NCBI GenBank assembly: GCA_002686945.1
Contig: NYYZ01000029.1
Coordinates: 1 to 64,000, forward strand
From: Planctomycetota bacterium
Lineage (GTDB): Bacteria; Planctomycetota; UBA1135; GCA-002686595
DNA length: 64,000 bases
Direction: 5' to 3'
The translations under genes and the position numbers were made by a program. Each line of letters begins with the position of its first letter. Position 1 is the first letter of the stretch. The notes below the pieces were generated by a model. That model saw nothing but the letters and a program-made list of their open reading frames with translations, was not told where the DNA came from and searched no databases. Positions 1,480 to 12,093 of the stretch are shown here, piece after piece.

Positions 1480-2598
1480 ATGCAATCCACCACCTTCGAA
1501 GGTCAACTCCGCGACCCCTCGCTCACAAGCCCCGACCAAAGCAACTACTCGCTTCCGGCCGTACTTGAGCTCAGCACCACAGGCATCAGCGCTCAAACAG
1601 AGGGGCATCCCGCACGGCAACTTTCCTGGAGCGGCATGCGCCTGCGCCGCAACGACAGCGGTGCCGTTGAATTCACCCAAGCAGGCCTGACCGTCAGCTC
1701 GCTGGACCCCAACATACTGCGCGCGGTTGAAAGTCTGGCGGGCAATGACCTGGGCAATGATATTGCGCGACTGGGAGGCGCATCGGTCTCGGGTCCTTGG
1801 CGCACGCGACTTGGATGCCTGGCCGTTTGCGCTCTCATTTTCTGGATGGTGGCAAAAATCCCAGCCTGCTTCAACGCAGTGACCGAAGGAGTTACGGAGA
1901 GCATCCCCTACTCCGCCGACGAAGCCATCGGCGAACTCGCCACGGGCTCCATGCCCACCAACGGCAATGAGATCACAGATCCCGTGCTACGGGGCGCGAT
2001 CGAAGTGATGCTCAACCGCATCGCTCCCCACCGCTCCCTGCCCGATGCAGAGTTTCAGTTCAAGATCGTGCGCAACCCCACCGTCAACGCCTTCGCCCTG
2101 CCCGGAGGCTACATCACGGTCTTCACCGGCTTGATAGAAAAAGCCACCAGCCCTGAGCAGGTGGCCGGGGTCCTGGCCCATGAGATCTCTCATGTAACCA
2201 AGCGTCACGGGATCAATCGAATCGTCAAGGCTGCAGGCACCGCAGCAGTGGTCGCCGTAACCCTGGGAGATCTGGGCGGCGTGGAAGAGGCGGCCATTGA
2301 AGTGCTCACCTCGGTGACCATGAATGGCTACGGCCGCGGGGACGAAAGCGAAGCAGACCGGGAAGGTGTACGCATGTTGATCGCCGCGCGCATCGATCCC
2401 GAGGGTCTGGCACAATTCTTCGAGACCCTGGAAGAAGAACAGGAAGGAGAGATCCCCGTCTGGATGAGCACCCACCCCGCCCCCGGGGGCCGCGCCCAAG
2501 CGGTACGCGACCAGGTGTTTGAACTCAGCAGCACACCCCAGTGGGAGCCCCTGGACATCGACTGGGACAAACTCCTGCAGCGTTTGGACGAGATCTAG
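1480..2598 (+). CDS. M48 family membrane-anchored zinc metalloprotease
   Basis: 372 residues from the ATG at 1480, 4 nt after the previous stop. An in-frame GTG at 1429 lies inside the previous gene and is less likely. The N-terminal ~105 residues have no recognised domain. One membrane segment follows (LGCLAVCALIFWMVAKIP), then a peptidase M48 domain. This has the zinc motif HEISHVTKRH at about residues 234-243 and the downstream E-S-E-A-D glutamate ligand near residue 289, preceded by NAFALPGGYITVFTGL, as in BepA/YcaL/Oma1-type proteases. It probably acts in envelope protein quality control. The stop overlaps, tail to tail, the stop of aroF on the other strand, leaving no room for a terminator between them. 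Confidence 0.9.
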   Translation: MQSTTFEGQLRDPSLTSPDQSNYSLPAVLELSTTGISAQTEGHPARQLSWSGMRLRRNDSGAVEFTQAGLTVSSLDPNILRAVESLAGNDLGNDIARLGGASVSGPWRTRLGCLAVCALIFWMVAKIPACFNAVTEGVTESIPYSADEAIGELATGSMPTNGNEITDPVLRGAIEVMLNRIAPHRSLPDAEFQFKIVRNPTVNAFALPGGYITVFTGLIEKATSPEQVAGVLAHEISHVTKRHGINRIVKAAGTAAVVAVTLGDLGGVEEAAIEVLTSVTMNGYGRGDESEADREGVRMLIAARIDPEGLAQFFETLEEEQEGEIPVWMSTHPAPGGRAQAVRDQVFELSSTPQWEPLDIDWDKLLQRLDEI

Positions 2599-3644
2599 GA
2601 CTGCTGCGCAGGCTGAACCAGTTGCTCGGCAAGGTGCCGACCCCCCACCGCTGCGTAGACCCTGGCGTCCGCCACCAGACCGGCGAGTTCACCCGGCAAG
2701 AGAGCCTGGCCTCCATCGCTCTTGGCGTATTCAGGGCTTGCGTGCACCTCCACCGCCAGACCATCCGCGCCAGCAGCCAGGGCAGCCCGGGCCAGGGGCG
2801 GGATCAATCCGGGAATACCGGCTGCGTGGCTGGGATCCACCATGATCGGCAGGTGTGACCATTGCTGCAACAGAGGCAAGACGGTCAGGTCCAGAGTGTT
2901 GCGCGTGGCGGGCTCGAAAGTACGGATGCCGCGCTCGCACAAGATCACATCATCGCAACCGTGGGCCGCGAGGTATTCCGCAGACTGCAACCACTCCTTG
3001 ATGGTCGCGGAGAGACCGCGCTTGAGCAAGACCGGCCGTCGGGCAGTGGCCACGGTCTTGAGCAGAGTGAAATTCTGCATGTTGCGTGCACCGATCTGCA
3101 GACAGTCCACATCGTGATCAAGAAATGCGGACAAGTGCCCCGCGTCCATGATCTCGCTGATAATTGGCATGCCATAGCGCAGGCCAGCTTCCTTGAGAAG
3201 AAACAAGCCCTCGCGCCCGAGTCCTTGGAAGGCATAGGGCGATGTGCGCGGCTTGAATGCTCCACCCCGCAGAACATGAGCCCCCGCCCGTTGGGCGCAA
3301 CGCGCCGCGTCGTCCAGTTGCTTGGCGTTTTCCACAGAGCAAGGACCTGCTATGACCACCACGCTCCCGCCACCCACAGGCACGCCCCCCAAACTGATTA
3401 CCGAGGGTCCATCCCGGAAACTACGATCCACTCGGCGCCACTCGCCCTCGGGATGCACGATGGACTCCAGCTCGGCCAATTCTTCGATGCGCCTGACGAG
3501 ACTTGCATCCACCTTGTCCAGGGTGGCGATGATTGGCCGGTTGAGTTCCGGACTGCGCGAGGTGCGCACGCCTTCGACTTCGAGCATCTCCGAAATCGCA
3601 GCCGCCCGAGCTTCCGATGTACCGGGCCAGAGGCGCAGGATCAT
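2595..3644 (-). CDS. aroF: 3-deoxy-7-phosphoheptulonate synthase, type I-beta
   Basis: 349 residues. Condenses phosphoenolpyruvate with erythrose 4-phosphate, the first step of the shikimate pathway. Residues ~1-85 look like the ferredoxin-like regulatory domain of Thermotoga-type I-beta enzymes (start MILRLWPG). The TIM barrel follows with IAGPCSVE (metal Cys), VLRGGAFKPRTSPYAFQGLG, LLKRGLSATI, ILCERGIRTFE, VDPSHAAG (metal His) and AVEVHASPEYAKSDG (metal Glu). The ATG at 3644 overlaps the stop of the upstream chorismate-mutase-like gene (ATGA). It is the last gene of the trp operon, so the entry step of aromatic synthesis should share the trp attenuator's control. The symbol is given by function; the family is also called aroA(G). 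Confidence 0.95.
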   Translation of the reverse strand: MILRLWPGTSEARAAAISEMLEVEGVRTSRSPELNRPIIATLDKVDASLVRRIEELAELESIVHPEGEWRRVDRSFRDGPSVISLGGVPVGGGSVVVIAGPCSVENAKQLDDAARCAQRAGAHVLRGGAFKPRTSPYAFQGLGREGLFLLKEAGLRYGMPIISEIMDAGHLSAFLDHDVDCLQIGARNMQNFTLLKTVATARRPVLLKRGLSATIKEWLQSAEYLAAHGCDDVILCERGIRTFEPATRNTLDLTVLPLLQQWSHLPIMVDPSHAAGIPGLIPPLARAALAAGADGLAVEVHASPEYAKSDGGQALLPGELAGLVADARVYAAVGGRHLAEQLVQPAQQS

Positions 3645-3862
3645 TGCGCACCCCCATTGTTTGCACAACAGCCCGCTTGAATCGCCTCGAAGACGCTTGA
3701 GAGAGCATGCGGGGAAAAGTCTCCGCTGGCCCGCAGCAGCAGATCCTCCAGGTTTGCGGGGACTTCCAGGGCTTCGTCTGCCAGCAATCGCGCCCGTTCC
3801 TCCAACAGGTTCAACAGAGCGCGATCGAGAAAGGCCAGGTGGTTTCTGGTTTGAGGTTGCAT
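3641..3862 (-). CDS. Truncated chorismate-mutase-like (AroQ fold) small protein
   Basis: 73 residues. The start is the ATG at 3862, with AGGAAA just upstream and 8 nt after the trpA stop; an upstream in-frame ATG would overlap trpA. The first helix (LAFLDRALLNLLEERARLL) matches helix 1 of AroQ chorismate mutases, and FSPHALSSVFEAIQAG matches the helix-3 region of the mutase domain fused to Bacillus DAHP synthases. About ten residues between helices 1 and 2, where the catalytic Lys and a catalytic Arg normally lie, are missing. It may be catalytically dead and act as a partner or regulator of the DAHP synthase encoded directly downstream with a 4-nt overlap. This is from my own alignment by eye; family membership is probable, function inferred. 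Confidence 0.6.
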   Translation of the reverse strand: MQPQTRNHLAFLDRALLNLLEERARLLADEALEVPANLEDLLLRASGDFSPHALSSVFEAIQAGCCANNGGAQ

Positions 3863-3870
3863 GGGTTTTC

Positions 3871-4686
3871 CTATTTCGGTTGGGCCCGACAAAGAGCCGC
3901 CACAAAGTCATGGGCCGCCTGAGCCCCATCCTGGGGAGAGCCCCCGGTGCGGTGCAAGAGTTGCACCAGGGCGCTGCCCGAGATCGCCAAATCCGTATGG
4001 CCCGCCAAGGCTGAAATGTCCGCAGGCTCGGCCACGCCAAAGCCCACGGCCAAGGGGGTAGAGCCTGCCAGAGCACGGACCTGATCGAGCCAGCCCAGGA
4101 CCTCCGCGTCGAAACAAGTGCGCTGGCCCGTGACTCCCGTGCGCCCCACACAATACAAGAAACCGGTGGAGGCTTCGGCAGCGGCACGAATCCGCGCCGG
4201 CGACGAGCGCGGAGTGGCAAAGAACACCGTGCCAAGGCCTAGCTCCGCGCAGGGTTCCTGCAGTTCTTGAGCCAACTCCGGGGGCAGGTCGGGCACCACG
4301 AAACCGTCGCCCCCCGCCTCGGCCAATCGTTCCGCGCTGGCCCCAAGGCCGCCCAGACCCACGAAAAGGGGATTGATGTAACTGAACAACAGCACCGCCA
4401 TGAGCCCGCCCTCTTCGCGGTAGGCACGAATCAACTCAAGGGTCCGGACCGGGGTCATACCCCCTGCCAGACTGCGCTGGGCAGCGGCCTGCAAGATCGG
4501 TCCATCCGCCAAAGGATCGGAGAAAGGCAAGCCCAACTCCAGACACACGGCGCCCGCCTTTTCGATTGCGTGCATCACCGCCAGGCTGCGCTCAAAACCC
4601 CCGTCCCCGGCGGTCAGGTAGGGCGCAATTGCGGGGCAGGCACCCTCGCGCCCCACCCGGATGGCAGCTTGCAGGAAAGCGCTCAC
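3871..4686 (-). CDS. trpA: Tryptophan synthase alpha chain
   Basis: 271 residues. Cleaves indole-3-glycerol phosphate to indole and glyceraldehyde 3-phosphate, working with TrpB. Visible are YLTAGDGG near the start, the catalytic Glu and Asp in [22 protein letters not shown], the loop before TGVTG, and [11 protein letters not shown] near the C-terminus. Length is normal. The ATG overlaps the trpB stop by 4 nt, so alpha and beta chains should be made in equal amounts by coupled translation. Confidence 0.97.
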
Positions 4687-5867
4687 GCCTCATCCCCCAG
4701 CAGGGGCAAGACGGTGACCAGGTCCTTGTCGCCTCGGCCCGAAAGACCGAGTACCACCCGTTTGCCCTGCCAGTCACCCTGATGGGTCATGAGCCAACCC
4801 AGGGCGTGTGAGGACTCCAAAGCGGGCAGAATCCCCTCGAACCGTCCGAGCGCCTGGAATCCTGCCAGGGCTTCTGCATCTCCGGCGACCTCGTAGCGCG
4901 CACGCCCCTGATCAAAAAGATCCGCATGCTCAGGGCCCACCGCGGGGTAATCCAAACCGGCGCTGATGGAGTGTGTGCCCTGAATCTGGCCGTGTTCATC
5001 TGAAAGCACCAAAGTGCGGCAACCGTGCAGGACTCCCTCACGCCCCCCAAGCCAACGCGCCGCGTGCTCTCCCGGCTGGGAACCGCGGCCTCCCGCTTCG
5101 ACTCCCATGAGGGCCACCTGCTGGTGGGGCAAGAAGGCGCGAAAAAGACCAATCGCATTGGATCCGCCCCCTACACAAGCCAGCGCGAGATCCGGCAACT
5201 CAACCCCGCTCTGCTCCTGGAACTGGCGCTTGGCTTCTTCTCCAATCACCGAGTGAAACGCGGCCACGATAGTGGGAAAGGGGTGAGGGCCAAGTGCCGA
5301 GCCCAACAGATAGTGCGCATCGGGGTCGGAAACCCAAGCGCGCAAGGCTTCGTTCACCGCGTCCTTGAGGGTGCGCTGACCGCTGGACACGGACTCGACT
5401 CGCGCGCCCAGCAAGCGCATGCGCTCCACATTGGGCCGCTGTCGTTCGATGTCCACCTCCCCCATGTAGACCACGCATTCCAAACCAAGCAGAGCACATA
5501 CAGTGGCGCTGGCGACCCCGTGTTGTCCCGCGCCGGTCTCTGCAAGGATGCGCTTCTTCCCCATGCGCCGAGCCAAGAGTGCCTGACCCATTGCGTTGTT
5601 CAGCTTGTGGGCTCCCGTATGCAGAAGATCCTCGCGCTTGAGCCAGAGGTCCACACCCCACTCTTTGCTTAGACGCTGGGCATGAAACAGAGGTGTGGGT
5701 CGCCCACCAAAGTCGCGGGCCAGACGCGCGAGTTCACTTGTGAACCCCGGGTCCCCTTGGGATTCGATGAAAGCGGCTTCCAATTCCAGGAGGGCCGGCA
5801 TCAATGTCTCAGGGGCATAGCAGCCGCCGAAGCGCCCAAAGTGCGTGGGAAGTTGGAAGGAACTCAT
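4683..5867 (-). CDS. trpB: Tryptophan synthase beta chain
   Basis: 394 residues from the ATG at 5867, which forms ATGA with the trpF stop. The frame is open further upstream, but that region lies inside trpF. It condenses indole with serine using PLP. Visible are [17 protein letters not shown], the PLP lysine in [25 protein letters not shown], the phosphate-binding GGGSNAIG, and the C-terminal GRGDKDL. This is the TrpB1 type that pairs with TrpA. Part of the seven-gene coupled trp set. Confidence 0.97.
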
Positions 5868-6502
5868 GGCTGGGTCTCCTGCAGGACAAAGGCCTGGCGA
5901 GCCCGATCCGCAAAATCCGTCATGCGCTGGGGATCTTTTTCTCCGGGAGCACTTTCCAAGCGGGAGGAAGCATCCACACCAAGGGGTTTGACCGCGCGGA
6001 TGCTGGCAGCAACACTTTCCGGACCCAGTCCCCCGGCCAGAAGACATGGCCCCGCAGCAGCAAGTTCCGCAGCCAGACCGGAATCAACCAGGAGCCCGCT
6101 GCCCCCAACAGAAGATGGATGATCGAGCACGAATGCCTGGGCCGCACTGAACCAGCGGCCCAGATCCACCAAGGCTCCCTTCTGCACACCTATGCGCCGC
6201 AGAATCGGAAAGCCAAAGGACTCAAAGTCCTCGGGATCCTGATCTCCGCACAACTGCAACAGGTCCGCGCCACTCGTCTTCATCAAGGAACCAAGATCAT
6301 CGGGGTCACCGTTCACCACCACCAACACACTGGACTTGTTCGCGGGAACGGCCGCCACCAGAGGCGCGAGATCTTGAAGAGAAACATGACGGGGAGAACC
6401 CTCGTGGTGTACAAAACCAAAGAGATCTGCCCCCGCCCCGACCGCCCCGTGCACATCCTCAACTCGAGTCAGCCCGCAGATCTTGACCGTGCCCGGCTTC
6501 AT
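5864..6502 (-). CDS. trpF: Phosphoribosylanthranilate isomerase
   Basis: 212 residues from the ATG at 6502, which overlaps the trpC stop as ATGA; an in-frame ATG at 6523 would overlap trpC further. It catalyses the Amadori rearrangement of phosphoribosylanthranilate to CdRP. The catalytic Cys is in VKICGLTR and the catalytic Asp in [12 protein letters not shown]. Phosphate-binding motifs AGGLGPESV and [10 protein letters not shown] are present, followed by the usual P-G-x-K-D end. TrpC and TrpF are separate proteins here, unlike the enterobacterial fusion. Confidence 0.95.
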
Positions 6503-7305
6503 ACCTCTAGCACCTCCCTCCAACTACGCAGAGTCGCTTCGGGGTCTTCAGAGCGCATGAGGGCCGTGCCCACCAATGCCGCATCCGCTCCTGCTGCGCG
6601 CACACGCAACAGGTCTTCAGGACCATACAAGCCGGACTCCGCCACTGACATGACACCCTCGGGGATGAGGGGCAAAATGCGCTCGACGGTAGCCAGGTCA
6701 ATCGAGAAATCCCGCAAATCACGCGCGTTGACTCCGATGGCACCAACACCGATAGACGCACAGTCAAGTCGTGCGGCCCGTTCCAGTTCCCCTTCATCGT
6801 GGATCTCCACCAAGGTGAAGAGCCCCTGCTCCCTAGCGCACACGGCCAGTTCTTCGAGCAGGGCGTCCTCCAAGCAAGCGCAGATCAAGAGCACCCCATC
6901 CGCTCCCATGGGCACGCTTTCGAGCACCATCTGAGTGGAAATCAAGAAGTCCTTGCGCAAGAGAGGCAACCCAGCGGATTGCACGGCGGCAAGATCCCGG
7001 GGATGGCCCCCAAAGTGCTCTTCCTCGGTCAAGATCGAAAGGGCCGCGGCGCCTCCGCGGGCATAGGCCTGTGCCCGCCAGGCAAGATCTACCTCTTTGG
7101 AAAGCTGCCCCACCGAGGGAGCCCGGCGTTTGCACTCAGCGATCAGAGACAGGCCGGGAGCGCCAAGGGCTGTGCGAAACAACTCTAGAGAACCTGCGGT
7201 AGCGATCCTCTCCACTGGCTGGCGCTCGCCTGCCCTGACAGCCACCGATTGCAGGATCGGATCCAGCCGGGTCCCTGTCAGCCGCACTCCAGCGGGCAAG
7301 CTCAC
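6499..7305 (-). CDS. trpC: Indole-3-glycerol phosphate synthase
   Basis: 268 residues if started at the GTG at 7305, which gives a GTGA overlap with trpD like the other junctions; an in-frame start at 7335 would lie inside trpD. It closes the indole ring of CdRP. Motifs are LIAECKRRAPSVG (catalytic Lys), AALSILTEEEHFGG, LLRKDFL, LVEIHDEGEL, IGVNARDLRDF and VAESGLYGPEDL. The usual IAEIKRxSPS motif is slightly altered but keeps Glu, Lys and Ser. Confidence 0.95.
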   Translation of the reverse strand: MSLPAGVRLTGTRLDPILQSVAVRAGERQPVERIATAGSLELFRTALGAPGLSLIAECKRRAPSVGQLSKEVDLAWRAQAYARGGAAALSILTEEEHFGGHPRDLAAVQSAGLPLLRKDFLISTQMVLESVPMGADGVLLICACLEDALLEELAVCAREQGLFTLVEIHDEGELERAARLDCASIGVGAIGVNARDLRDFSIDLATVERILPLIPEGVMSVAESGLYGPEDLLRVRAAGADAALVGTALMRSEDPEATLRSWREVLEV

Positions 7306-8318
7306 GCACTTACCGCCTGGGAGAGTTGCACCCACTGTTCCAAGCGATCCTTGGCCGCGCCCGAATCCAAGGCCTCGGCGGCCAGTTGCAGGCCCTCTTC
7401 GGCACTCGCTGCTTTCTCCGCCAGCACAAGAGCCGCCGACACGTTGTAGAGCAATGCATCCCGCAGGGGCCCACCGTCACCAACCAGCAGTCGCTGCAAG
7501 ATGCCCGCATTGTGCTGCGCATCACCCCCCGCCAAGGCGGAAACCGGCGCCGCGTCCAGACCCAGGTTCACTCCTTGCGCCTCAAAGGACTCCAAGGAGC
7601 CCACGCAGCGCACCATGTTGGGCCCGTCCAAAGTCAACTCATCCGCACCGCCGCCCCCATGGACCACCAACGCGCGCACATGGCCCAGGGACTCCAAAAT
7701 CGATGCCACCTCCTCAATCCGGGATCCATCCGAAACCCCCACCAACTGCCGACGAACAGCACCGGGGTTAGCGAGGGGGCCGAGAGAATTGAAAATCGTG
7801 CGAATCCCCAAGGCCTTGCGCACAGGTCCCGCATGGCGCATGGCCGGATGATAGAGAGGCGCGTGCAGATAGGTGATACCCACCTGCTCCAGAACCTCCC
7901 GAGCCTGTTCCGGGGTCAACTCAATGCAGACCCCAAGTGCTTCCAACAAGTCCGCGGATCCGGACTTGGAAGAAGCCGCTCGGTTGCCGTGCTTGACCAC
8001 CTGGGCTCCCGCGGCGGCGGCCACTAGGGCAGCTGCGGTGGATATGTTGAATGTGCCGAGCCCATCGCCACCAGTGCCACAGGTGTCGATGGCATCTGGG
8101 AAGGAATGCTCGAAGGGCAACATGCTGGCACGCAATGCGCGCACGGCTCCGAGCAATTCGTCCCGGGTCTCCCGCCGTTGAGCCAAACTGGCCAGGAGCG
8201 CAGCCAGGACCAGAGGATCTGCTCTACCACCCAGAACCTCCCCAAAAACCTCTTCGCACTCCGTACTGCTCAGCGTCGCGCCCCCCTGCACAGCGGCCAG
8301 TGCCTCTCGCGTGTTCAC
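7302..8318 (-). CDS. trpD: Anthranilate phosphoribosyltransferase
   Basis: 338 residues. Transfers phosphoribose from PRPP to anthranilate. The PRPP loop DTCGTGGDGLGTFNIST, KHGNRAASSKSGSADLLEALG and RTIFNSLGPLANP are intact. The ATG at 8318 overlaps the trpG stop (ATGA). It is not fused to trpG, unlike in E. coli. Confidence 0.97.
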   Translation of the reverse strand: MNTREALAAVQGGATLSSTECEEVFGEVLGGRADPLVLAALLASLAQRRETRDELLGAVRALRASMLPFEHSFPDAIDTCGTGGDGLGTFNISTAAALVAAAAGAQVVKHGNRAASSKSGSADLLEALGVCIELTPEQAREVLEQVGITYLHAPLYHPAMRHAGPVRKALGIRTIFNSLGPLANPGAVRRQLVGVSDGSRIEEVASILESLGHVRALVVHGGGGADELTLDGPNMVRCVGSLESFEAQGVNLGLDAAPVSALAGGDAQHNAGILQRLLVGDGGPLRDALLYNVSAALVLAEKAASAEEGLQLAAEALDSGAAKDRLEQWVQLSQAVSA

Positions 8319-8920
8319 AGACTGCTCCCCGGACTGCGCGTGGCCACGGGTTCTCCCGCAGCGGCCAAGAAGTTCGCCAGGATGCGGGTGCCCAGGGGAG
8401 TCAGAATCGACTCGGGATGGAACTGCACTCCAAAACGCGGGCCGCGGGTGTCTTGCACTGCCATCACATGCCCCTCCTCAGTCCAAGCAATCAGATCCAA
8501 ATGCTCCGGCAGGCTGGCCCGCTCGGCCACCAGAGAGTGATAGCGCGCACAGGGCAACGGACTCTGAATACCGCGAAACAAGGGCCCCTTGGCGTGGTGC
8601 ACCATGCTCGCCTTGCCATGCACCGGTGAGGGATCCACCAGCAGCTTGCCGCCAGCCTGCTCCACAAGTGCCTGGTGCCCAAGACAAACCCCCAGCACCG
8701 GTGTGCTGCAATCGAGAGCAGCGAGTAATTCCAGCGTTATGCCCGCGTCCTTGGGTCGACCCGGTCCCGGAGAAATCACCAGCGCTGAAGCTCCCAGGGC
8801 CAGGGCCTGTTCGCATGTCAAGGCATCGTTTCGCCGCACCGCAACTTCGGCACCCAAAGCGGCCAGAACCTGCACCAGGTTGTAGGTGAAGGAATCGTAG
8901 TTGTCGATCAAGAGAATCAT
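8315..8920 (-). CDS. trpG: Anthranilate synthase glutamine amidotransferase subunit
   Basis: 201 residues, a class I glutamine amidotransferase supplying ammonia to TrpE. The sequence starts MILLIDNYDSFTYNLVQ. The nucleophile Cys is in GVCLGHQAL and the His/Glu pair in QFHPESILT. SPGPGRPKDAG is the oxyanion region. It could in principle also serve PabB (4-amino-4-deoxychorismate synthesis), but its place between trpE and trpD favours tryptophan synthesis. The start overlaps the trpE stop by 4 nt. Confidence 0.96.
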   Translation of the reverse strand: MILLIDNYDSFTYNLVQVLAALGAEVAVRRNDALTCEQALALGASALVISPGPGRPKDAGITLELLAALDCSTPVLGVCLGHQALVEQAGGKLLVDPSPVHGKASMVHHAKGPLFRGIQSPLPCARYHSLVAERASLPEHLDLIAWTEEGHVMAVQDTRGPRFGVQFHPESILTPLGTRILANFLAAAGEPVATRSPGSSL

Positions 8921-10410
8921 GACTGAGCCTCCACCTGATTACCGCCCCGTGGCTGAAAAGCAGGTTCGGCGGCCATTGTCACGGTCTCTGCCATGGCTTG
9001 AGCCTTGTGCATGGTTTCCGCGTGCTCCAGCTCAGGTTTCGACTCCCAGACGATACCCGCCCCCGCCTGCCAATGAACCCGATTCGCTTGCACTACGAGA
9101 GTCCGGATGGTGATGGCCAACTCCGCCGATCCTGAGCCATCAAAGTAGCCGAAAGCCCCCGCGTAGGGTCCGCGGCAACGGCCCTCCAAGGCAGTGACCA
9201 ATTCCAGGGCGCGCACCTTGGGCGCTCCTGAAACCGTTCCCGCGGGAAAGCAGGCAGCGGCCAGATCCAAGGCGTCTCGACCAGCAGCGAGGCGGGATTC
9301 AACGCGACTGACCAGGTGCTGCACCCGAGGAAATTTCTCCAGCACGGCGTGTTCGCACACCCGCACGCTGCCCACACGAGCCACCCGGCCCAGATCATTG
9401 CGCGCCAGATCGACCAGCATGTCGTGCTCTGCACGTTCCTTGGGATCGGTCGAGAGCTCCACGCCCAAGAGATCGTCCTGCTCCTTGTCCGTGCCGCGGG
9501 GGCGGGTGCCTGCGATGGGAACGGCCTGACAAATCCCGTCACGCAGGGAAACCAAACGCTCTGGAGATGACCCGATCAGGGTGATGTCATCCGTGGACCA
9601 ATAAAACATGTGGGGCGCGGGGTTCACCAGGCGCAGCACGCGATAGAGGGTGAAAGAATCCCCCGCAAAGCGCCGGGAAAAACCCTGACTGAGGACTGCC
9701 TGAAAGACCTCCCCCGCGCCGATGCTCTGGCGCAAAGTCTCCACCGCTTCCATGTAGACACCAGCTTCAGTGGTGCGCTCAGGCTGATCGTCCAGCAGGG
9801 TGAAGCCTTTGAAATCCCCCGCCTCGGTGAAGAGGTCCTGGGCCAGCCCCTCTAGTTTCTTCTCCGCCGCACTGCGGTCAGCAGCGCCCTGGGGACAGGC
9901 GGTGATCAGATACAAACGCTGGGTCGCATGATCAAAGGCCACCACATCCCGGAACAAATCAAAACAGGCGTCTGGCGCACCGAATGGATCGTTCTCCTGT
10001 CGCTTGATGCGTGGCTCCAGCTCCGTGACCCACTCATGTCCAAAGAAACCAAGCCAGCCCCCCACCAGAGGCGGCAAACCCGGGGGCGCCTTGGGCACCG
10101 CGTGAGACTTGAGGGCCGCGCGCAAGGCTTCCAATGCGCCGCCTTGGGTGGTCACGCTCTTGCCACCCTCGGTGACGGACACTTCTCCCGCCCGCGCTCG
10201 CAGAGACGCGCAGGGATTGACGGCCACGAAGGAATAGCGCGCCAGACGCATCACCCCCTCGACGGATTCGAGCAGCGCGCCCTGGTGGCCGCTGGCCCTC
10301 AGAGCTCGGAATGCCTGCACCGGGGTGAGGAGGTCAGCGGGCAACACCCACCAGGCCAGTTGGTGCTGATCGGCGTCGTGATCGGTGGATCGGGAAAGAG
10401 GTGAAGTCAC
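8917..10410 (-). CDS. trpE: Anthranilate synthase component I
   Basis: 497 residues from the GTG at 10410. The frame stays open to 10656, but that stretch holds the attenuator terminator and the leader ORF in another frame, so it cannot be the N-terminus. The conserved sequence starts at LPADLLTPVQAFRALR. LLES, in the usual site for feedback binding of tryptophan, is present. The chorismate-binding domain shows GSSPERLVSLRDG, PIAGTRPRG, LARNDLGRVARVG, FPAGTVSGAPKVRALE and QAGAGIVWESKPE. No strong Shine-Dalgarno is visible at the GTG, so the start remains the least certain point. First structural gene of the operon. Confidence 0.95.
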   Translation of the reverse strand: MTSPLSRSTDHDADQHQLAWWVLPADLLTPVQAFRALRASGHQGALLESVEGVMRLARYSFVAVNPCASLRARAGEVSVTEGGKSVTTQGGALEALRAALKSHAVPKAPPGLPPLVGGWLGFFGHEWVTELEPRIKRQENDPFGAPDACFDLFRDVVAFDHATQRLYLITACPQGAADRSAAEKKLEGLAQDLFTEAGDFKGFTLLDDQPERTTEAGVYMEAVETLRQSIGAGEVFQAVLSQGFSRRFAGDSFTLYRVLRLVNPAPHMFYWSTDDITLIGSSPERLVSLRDGICQAVPIAGTRPRGTDKEQDDLLGVELSTDPKERAEHDMLVDLARNDLGRVARVGSVRVCEHAVLEKFPRVQHLVSRVESRLAAGRDALDLAAACFPAGTVSGAPKVRALELVTALEGRCRGPYAGAFGYFDGSGSAELAITIRTLVVQANRVHWQAGAGIVWESKPELEHAETMHKAQAMAETVTMAAEPAFQPRGGNQVEAQS

Positions 10411-10463: not shown

Positions 10464-10506
10464 GGAAAAAAGAAGCGCGGGCCCCCAGAGGATCTGGGAG
10501 CCCGCG
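10464..10506 (-). terminator. trp attenuator terminator hairpin with U-tract
   Basis: Read on the minus strand, CGCGGGCTCCCAGA, loop TCC, TCTGGGGGCCCGCG forms a 14-bp stem with one G-U pair, followed by CTTCTTTTTTCC. This is a textbook intrinsic terminator. It lies between the leader peptide stop (10533) and the trpE start (10410), inside the transcribed leader, so it is an attenuator and not an end-of-gene terminator. The left arm is also the 3' half of the antiterminator. Confidence 0.9.
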
Positions 10507-10566
10507 ATGAACATCAGGAAAAGGCGAAGGTTCTAAGTCTCGCACCCCATCCGCTGCATCGCGGGC
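10500..10566 (-). promoter_or_regulatory. trp antiterminator helix (alternative to the attenuator)
   Basis: GCCCGCGATG at 10566-10557 is perfectly complementary to CATCGCGGGC at 10509-10500. The first segment begins 6 nt after the last of three Trp codons in the leader ORF. The second includes the left arm of the terminator stem, so the two structures exclude each other. A ribosome stalled on the first Trp codon would leave the first segment free, allow the 10-bp antiterminator and permit read-through into trpE. A local helix (CTCGC near 10571 with GCGAG just before the leader stop) may compete with it. The geometry was read by eye and folding energies were not computed. Confidence 0.82.
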
Positions 10567-10619
10567 GAGGGCCACCACCATTGCCCCAATAGGGCACTGG
10601 ATTGGCTGGGAGCGGTCAT
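10533..10619 (-). CDS. trpL: trp leader peptide with three consecutive Trp codons
   Basis: 28 residues, starting MTAPSQSSALLGQWWW and ending in TAG at 10533. Codons 14-16 are TGG TGG TGG. CAGGGG lies upstream of the ATG as a possible ribosome-binding site. It sits about 34 nt after a plausible transcription start and is followed by the antiterminator and terminator, the standard order of a ribosome-mediated trp attenuator. The peptide itself has no expected function; it senses charged tRNA-Trp by translation speed. It is too short for ordinary gene callers. Confidence 0.88.
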   Translation of the reverse strand: MTAPSQSSALLGQWWWPSPAMQRMGCET

Positions 10620-10659
10620 ACGCCCCTGGGGACCTTGGATCTTGCGTTCCATTCAACGA

Positions 10660-10687
10660 ATCCTAACCAGTCCGGCCCGGAGCGCAA
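10660..10687 (-). promoter_or_regulatory. Candidate trp operon promoter with overlapping inverted repeat
   Basis: On the minus strand, TTGCGC (10687-10682) is followed after 16 nt by TAGGAT (10665-10660), a 3/6 and 4/6 match to sigma-70 boxes. This would start transcription near 10653, about 34 nt before trpL. A 7-bp perfect inverted repeat (GGCCCGG at 10674-10680, CCGGGCC at 10691-10697) surrounds the -35 box. It could be a repressor operator or the 3' hairpin of the aldehyde dehydrogenase transcript; there is no T-run after it. The hexamers are weak matches. Confidence 0.4.
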
Positions 10688-10719: not shown

Positions 10720-12093
10720 TCAACCGGGCGCAGTTGCAACGGTCTTTGGAGTCGTGAACTGCCGGTGACCTTCGATGCCCCCGAGGAAGCCCACACCAGA
10801 CTGCCGAGCGCCGACCCAGGGAGTACCCGGGGCGCCGCCCAGATAACGATTGACCCCAACCTGACCAGCGCGCAACCCAGCGGAAACCCGGCGGCCTCGC
10901 TCCGGGTCGCCGGTCCACACATTTGCGCCCAAGCCATAGACCGTGTCGTTGGCTCGCTCGACAGCCTCGTCTTCGGTGTCAAAGCAGGTCAGGCAGACCA
11001 CCGGGCCAAAAGTCTCATCACGAATAACCTTCGCATCGCTCGGGGCATCGACAATCACCGTGGCAGGATAGAACCAACCGGATCCCTTTGGGAGTTCACC
11101 GCCGAGGGCAATACGCGCACCCCGTTCCCGGGCGTCTGCCACATGGGCAACGACATTATCCCGTTGGGATTCACTCACCAAGGGCCCCATGCAGGTCTGC
11201 TTGACCTGGGGGTCTCCAAAAGGCCAGTTCCCCGCTTCCTGCAACACAAGCTCCTCGAAGCGTTGCGCCACGGAACGCTCCACCAGGACCCGTTCCACAC
11301 TGCAACAGACCTGCCCCGTATTGCGCAAGGAGTTCTGAGTCGCGCAGATTGCAGCGGCCTCCAGATCAGCGTCTGCAAAGACAAGCAGAGGATCCTTGCC
11401 TCCGAGTTCCAGTACCAGTCGTTTCAGACTGCCAGCGGCGCTGCGCATGATTGCGATGCCCGTGGCGCGGCTGCCCACAAAAGCGATCATGTCCACCTCT
11501 TCCTCCACAAGCGCAGCGCCTACTGGGCCGCCCCCTTGCAGCAGTTCCAGCGCCCCATCTGGCAGATGCTCCTGAAACAGGCGGGCCAGGAATGCACCGG
11601 TCAGAGGTACGTGCTCGCTGGGCTTGAACACCACCGTATTGCCCGCCCCCAGGGCAGGAATCAGAATCTGGGCTGGCATGCCCACGGGAAAATTCCAAGG
11701 GGTGATGACTGCCACAACCCCGTGAGGTTCCCGGGACAAGAGCACCTCGTCCTCGCTACCCGGCATGGTCTGGGGCGCAATCGCCGTGGCGACCTCATCC
11801 AACTCATCAGTCAAATGCCTCGCATAGCCCTGCACTTCGCCAATAGCCTGAGAAAGGGGCTTGCCCATCTCACGGGAAAGGAGTGCTCCCAGTTCCGGGG
11901 CCTCGTCCTCCAGGCGTTTGAGAACAGCGCGCAACAGGTCCAGGCGCTGGCCCGAGTCCATGCTACGCCAGGCGGGCCAGGCATTCCGGGCCCTAGCTAC
12001 CTTGGCTTGAACCTCCGCTTCGGTGGCACAGGGAATCTCCTCGATCAACTCTCCCGTGGCGGGATCAAGATTATGGATGGTGGCTTGGCTCAT
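10720..12093 (-). CDS. NAD(P)-dependent aldehyde dehydrogenase family protein
   Basis: 457 residues from the ATG at 12093 (MSQATIHNLDPATGE); an in-frame start 21 nt upstream adds nothing conserved. ALDH fold elements are VITPWNFPVGMPAQILIPAL, the catalytic Glu in LELGGKDPLLVFADADLE, the catalytic Cys in GQVCCSVERV, and DETFGPVVCLTCF. The sequence is closest in style to succinate-semialdehyde or short-chain aldehyde dehydrogenases, but the substrate cannot be fixed. It follows an SDR and signal peptidase on the same strand and ends just before the trp promoter. Confidence 0.9.
   Translation of the reverse strand: MSQATIHNLDPATGELIEEIPCATEAEVQAKVARARNAWPAWRSMDSGQRLDLLRAVLKRLEDEAPELGALLSREMGKPLSQAIGEVQGYARHLTDELDEVATAIAPQTMPGSEDEVLLSREPHGVVAVITPWNFPVGMPAQILIPALGAGNTVVFKPSEHVPLTGAFLARLFQEHLPDGALELLQGGGPVGAALVEEEVDMIAFVGSRATGIAIMRSAAGSLKRLVLELGGKDPLLVFADADLEAAAICATQNSLRNTGQVCCSVERVLVERSVAQRFEELVLQEAGNWPFGDPQVKQTCMGPLVSESQRDNVVAHVADARERGARIALGGELPKGSGWFYPATVIVDAPSDAKVIRDETFGPVVCLTCFDTEDEAVERANDTVYGLGANVWTGDPERGRRVSAGLRAGQVGVNRYLGGAPGTPWVGARQSGVGFLGGIEGHRQFTTPKTVATAPG

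Follow-up and report, generated by a model that had tools for sequence, protein, structure and literature searches.

The analysed window, a stretch of 64 kb which belongs to an incomplete genome of 2.8 Mb, harbours on its minus strand a tryptophan operon of the order trpE-G-D-C-F-B-A, followed by an ORF of 83 amino acids and a gene for DAHP synthase. The first gene, trpE (8917 to 10410, GTG start), matches PF00425 and PF04715, its best NCBIfam model being TIGR00564, which scores below its cut-off. Downstream of it lie trpG (8315 to 8920; PF00117, TIGR00566 over cut-off), trpD (7302 to 8318; TIGR01245 over cut-off), trpC (6499 to 7335; PF00218), trpF (5864 to 6505; PF00697), trpB (4683 to 5870; PF00291), trpA (3871 to 4686; PF00290) and, beyond the 83-aa ORF, aroF encoding the DAHP synthase (2595 to 3644; PF00793, TIGR01361 over cut-off). 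The 83-aa ORF (3641 to 3892) bridges trpA and aroF as it overlaps the end of the former and the start of the latter. A preliminary description of this DNA had named seven trp genes, a chorismate-mutase-like gene and a DAHP synthase. While this order stands, the chorismate mutase match of the ORF is only a weak one (PF01817, E 0.0023) and falls below the curated cut-off. Judged from this weak match to the N-terminal part of chorismate mutase, the ORF perhaps represents a degenerate AroQ regulatory domain which was split from the DAHP synthase. The trpE-G-D-C-F-B-A order together with the following DAHP synthase recurs in relatives from the families f1 and f5, and aroF is found after trpA in most loci examined; L139 and L143 gave no DAHP synthase match, and L147 and L150 break off too soon for a decision. 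Because this synteny is conserved, co-regulation of DAHP synthase with the trp operon is plausible, and co-transcription would presumably extend through to aroF.

On the minus strand, 310 nt separate trpE (GTG 10410) from the preceding aldehyde dehydrogenase gene, which ends at 10720. Direct reading of this intergenic stretch reveals the sequence CAA TGG TGG TGG CCC, the three regulatory TGG codons of which occupy positions 10580 to 10572. The sequence GCCCGCGATG (10566-10557), henceforth segment 2, is perfectly complementary over 10 bp to CATCGCGGGC (10509-10500), segment 3, and the latter overlaps the 5' arm of an intrinsic terminator hairpin (segments 3:4), CGCGGGCTCCCAGA-TCC-TCTGGGGGCCCGCG (10506-10476). 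This hairpin of 14 bp, identified by folding and by a terminator scan, is followed by the T-tract CTTCTTTTTT (10475-10466), evident from direct reading as well as from the scan. The perfect 10-bp antiterminator and the 14-bp terminator with its T-tract, all located before trpE, are thus read exactly as described before, except that segment 2 begins 5 nt, and not 6 nt, after the last TGG. When the 310-nt region was subjected to dinucleotide shuffling 20,000 times, a WWW run within a short ORF arose 8 times and a comparable terminator 43 times, while the full combination never occurred. These shuffles and the 64-kb window served as the chance background for the pattern, and the trpE leader is the only TGGTGGTGG site in the window which shows all attenuator features. 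In addition, the 251-nt stretch containing the attenuator folds better than shuffled sequences (z -3.0).

The TGG run is part of a leader ORF, trpL, which encodes MERKIQGPQGRMTAPSQSSALLGQWWWPSPAMQRMGCET and probably extends over 39 codons from ATG 10652 to the TAG stop codon at 10535-10533, with segment 2 lying inside it. The preliminary description had assigned 28 codons to this ORF; its three TGG codons are indeed present, yet 28 codons result only from a start at the internal ATG 10619, which is not conserved and reads ATA, encoding Ile, in L004. A putative -10 hexamer, TAGGAT (10665-10660), is located 7 nt before ATG 10652. Across a further 16 nt it is preceded by TTGCGC (10687-10682), a putative -35 hexamer too weak to be listed by the consensus promoter scan and also present in L003 to L006 of the same genus. 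In 21 of 36 loci, a TAnnnT motif is found 6 to 9 nt before the start codon of the leader, compared to a mean of 1.8 loci (sd 1.3, maximum 7) in shuffles. The promoter position and the non-conserved internal methionine favour the in-frame upstream ATG 10652 and hence 39 codons. Since the -10 spacing recurs across loci and the internal ATG is not conserved, the leader transcript is probably leaderless, starting at or near 10652.

To judge the conservation of this arrangement, we read the regions upstream of trpE at 46 loci of the class, which represent one order and the families f1, f5 and f6. In 38 of them, trpE is preceded by a short ORF in which Trp codons cluster (e.g. MTNLANARWWWRSRPG..., MRQVQISKWWWPKEPAG..., MSMKNWYWRWLTGPEG...), with W-rich variants such as WWWRSRPG, WWWPKEPAG, WYWRWLTGPEG and WTWRWIGPEG. 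In the remaining eight, among them L007 and the loci of genus g23, no recognisable leader is present, and some of these are devoid of the terminator, too. L007 belongs to this group although its TrpE is 82% identical to that of the window. A strict automatic filter, demanding that an ORF of no more than 60 codons with a W cluster lie within 500 nt, accepted 32 of 45 loci in the class and 7 of 42 outside it. It rejected L030, L039, L068, L085, L090 and L092, in which reading nevertheless reveals the leader, while about half of the matches outside the class appear incidental. Most trpE genes outside the class hence have no W leader by this crude filter. Candidates which do appear real are G295 with WWWW, L170 (G154) with SCGWWWRWHMG behind a near-consensus promoter (TTGACC-17-CATAAT-7-ATG), L166 (G221) with SLWWRWF, i.e. 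WWRW, and a terminator, as well as L110 (G414) and L113 (G264), where WWIP* is accompanied by a conserved terminator. With 38 of 46 loci in the class and few convincing ones outside it, the attenuator is common within the class, whereas the rest of the Planctomycetota have it only sporadically. The close relatives of the window are Planctomycetota according to NCBI, in line with the phylum suspected earlier. Such an attenuator had been considered an unusual occurrence; within the class it is, on the contrary, the rule wherever a trp operon exists. Relatives lacking the TGG run and the complementary segments had been named as what would speak against the switch, and what we find in relatives is a retained W run, terminator and covarying antiterminator, which supports the complete ribosome-mediated trp attenuator originally proposed.

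Several observations were made alongside. Biosynthesis of tryptophan is patchy within the family, as TrpA was detected in 24 of 61 relatives and in 11 of the 28 better genomes. Presence of the attenuator seems to follow that of the trp operon. L040, L042, L052 and L053, four further loci from genomes of the same class, encode a second type of TrpE, the N-terminal part of which, by inspection, resembles that of E. coli TrpE. Their trpE genes are also preceded by WWW leaders, which lack the promoter spacing of the leaderless type, and possibly constitute a second, independently acquired attenuated trpE. A search for HisG (PF01634), carried out in order to look for a his leader, revealed that this enzyme is missing from most genomes of the class (0 of 14 better genomes compared to 13 of 14 control genomes), likely because histidine auxotrophy is widespread or because the enzyme has been replaced.

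Both RNA structures are backed by comparison of the leaders. Of 42 W leaders tested, 40 have a terminator, as a rule 20 to 39 nt past the leader stop codon. In 34 representative loci the strand following the W codons is more complementary to the terminator arm of its own locus than to swapped arms (mean 21.8 versus 16.8), a value reached by none of 20,000 permutations. In an alignment of 19 leaders, two-sided changes affect 10 of 11 terminator pairs (34 cells versus 8.7 expected, 0 of 500 shuffles), and two-sided changes are likewise seen in the antiterminator (11 cells versus 5.2 expected, 0 of 500 shuffles). The covariation of the latter is significant yet weaker, partly because the GGCCCG core, shared as the triple GGCCCG/CGGGCC/GGCCCG, hardly varies. 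A further hairpin (2:2'), in which segment 2 would pair with the sequence immediately following it, appeared in folds of single sequences and was discarded as covariation support for it is absent.

A covariance model built from the trpE leaders, R1, matches 29 of 121 genomes, nearly always as one strong copy before trpE, and recovers the window with an E value of 1e-8. Weaker matches in G057 and G124 precede a stand-alone ORF read, by inspection, as trpD, with leaders MAPSHCWCSPRRP... and MALSHPWCSPRRP..., respectively. These matches (L131 of G057, 1061-1178; L132 of G124, 1934-2051; both minus strand) comprise a -10-like hexamer, an antiterminator and a terminator, and their leader peptides, MAPSHCWCSPRRPAVPAEARGPSD and MALSHPWCSPRRPAVPAEARGPSA, contain one W flanked by Cys, so that they may perhaps respond to both amino acids. 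R1 matches on contig 90 of G005, contig 5 of G090, contig 169 of G084 and in G071 are weak, lie within or after unrelated genes and were dismissed as chance.

We are therefore highly confident that a functional ribosome-mediated transcription attenuator precedes trpE. From its anatomy, conservation, covariation and genomic position, all established computationally, we infer the following course for start site, translation, stalling, termination and physiological response. RNA polymerase would start at the A of ATG 10652 or close to it, whereupon a ribosome would begin the 39-codon trpL ORF, probably on a leaderless message. With Trp-tRNA scarce, it would stall at the first TGG codons, its front edge just short of segment 2 (10566-10557), which would then pair with segment 3 (10509-10500) and thereby preclude formation of the 14-bp terminator, enabling the polymerase to continue into trpEGDCFBA and probably aroF. 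With Trp-tRNA plentiful, the ribosome would run over segment 2 to the stop codon, where it would cover a large part of the sequence separating segments 2 and 3, leaving segment 3 to pair with segment 4 and transcription to end near 10466. As a consequence, full transcription of the trp genes is predicted to be restricted to conditions in which charged tryptophan tRNA is in short supply.

Folding with a ribosome footprint fits stalling at the first W codon as the signal. With the first W in the A site, segment 2 is left free and the calculated probability of the 2:3 pairing amounts to 0.96 (median), while it drops to 0.16 with the ribosome at the last W. Two observations count against the attenuator model: eight class loci are devoid of a recognisable leader, and with the ribosome at the stop codon the 2:3 pairing remains preferred at equilibrium in most loci. 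Termination in the presence of plentiful tryptophan would therefore need kinetics or steric hindrance. If, moreover, a transcript ending at the terminator 5' arm is folded without a ribosome, upstream sequence captures this arm with a median probability of 0.77 compared to 0.06 for E. coli trpL. This may point to a variant of the attenuator which is on by default: without a translating ribosome the antiterminator would form, and only a ribosome having passed the W codons would let the terminator fold. The location of segment 2 within the ORF agrees with such a variant, while the capture is not seen in L028, L030, L039, L052 and L091, and equilibrium folding leaves out co-transcriptional kinetics and early-forming hairpins. 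We consider it a serious possibility, albeit not the favoured one, and it is somewhat more doubtful still that leaderless, default-on trp attenuation, as suggested by these models, is characteristic of one planctomycete class. If true, loss of leader translation would raise expression, which is the reverse of the behaviour of E. coli.

In principle, the hairpin could also be a constitutive early terminator which merely dampens trp transcription next to an unrelated short ORF, its W run being incidental, as might be suspected from the eight class loci without a leader, some of which have no terminator either. W runs with conserved geometry in dozens of genera, the superiority of own-pair over swapped antiterminators and the W in the trpD-associated copies render this explanation very improbable. 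T-box or TRAP-type leaders, in which a tRNA or a bound protein would replace the ribosome as reader, are alternatives known from the trp operons of other phyla, but are extremely unlikely here, given the conserved W-run ORF and Rfam scans of the window and of ten relatives in which no family, T-box included, reached threshold.

The ribosome-read attenuator is a known kind of switch, which is here extended to a phylum for which no report was found in the open literature: as of 2010, leader-peptide attenuators were considered to be established only for Proteobacteria and Actinobacteria, to which a his case in Firmicutes was then added (PMC2965389), and the open-access literature yielded no report of such an attenuator in Planctomycetota. 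Its chief importance lies in what it implies for the cell. As a ribosome-read attenuator needs a ribosome close behind the polymerase, its conservation implies coupling of transcription and translation in the class. For the planctomycete Gemmata obscuriglobus, PMC6212462, citing Gottshall 2014, reports the two processes to be physically separated, a claim which is disputed (commentary PMC6554331). The attenuator provides a genetic test of coupling in this phylum. If aroF is co-transcribed, the first shikimate enzyme would, furthermore, come under the control of Trp-tRNA.

Compared to known systems, the planctomycete leader is likely distinguished by its leaderless start, by the location of an antiterminator strand within the ORF and by a possible default-on logic. 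With E. coli trpL (Rfam RF00513, Trp_leader) it shares a short ORF with consecutive Trp codons, the position before trpE and a mutually exclusive antiterminator and intrinsic terminator. The E. coli logic of segment order and spacing ascribed to it in the preliminary description accordingly applies in part. In E. coli, however, the antiterminator strand follows the leader stop codon and a 1:2 protector hairpin is present, no counterpart of which was evident upon folding of the planctomycete leader with E. coli trpL as control. RF00513, scoring 93 bits with this control, matched neither the window nor ten relatives. The trpLE(G) system of Sinorhizobium meliloti, a member of a different phylum, likewise has a W-run leader and a leaderless transcript, the 5' end of which coincides with the trpL ATG (PMC7298713), but its leader comprises 14 amino acids and precedes a fused trpE(G). 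The actinobacterial attenuators (Streptomyces TrpL1, MFAHSTRNWWWTAHPAAH, and Corynebacterium) also belong to a different phylum, and their leader peptides differ from the longer planctomycete ones. In S. lividans, moreover, trpE is monocistronic, in contrast to the seven-gene trp operon plus aroF behind the planctomycete switch. Yet in both the WWW run is followed by several further codons, and S. lividans trpL1 is leaderless, as measured, with a TAnnnT -10 motif at a distance of about 6 nt from its start site (PMC8079986). Finally, the GGCCCG/CGGGCC/GGCCCG core closely resembles the gGCC-rGCy-GGCC triple which is common to antiterminator and terminator in Actinobacteria (PMC1262725), a likeness by features.
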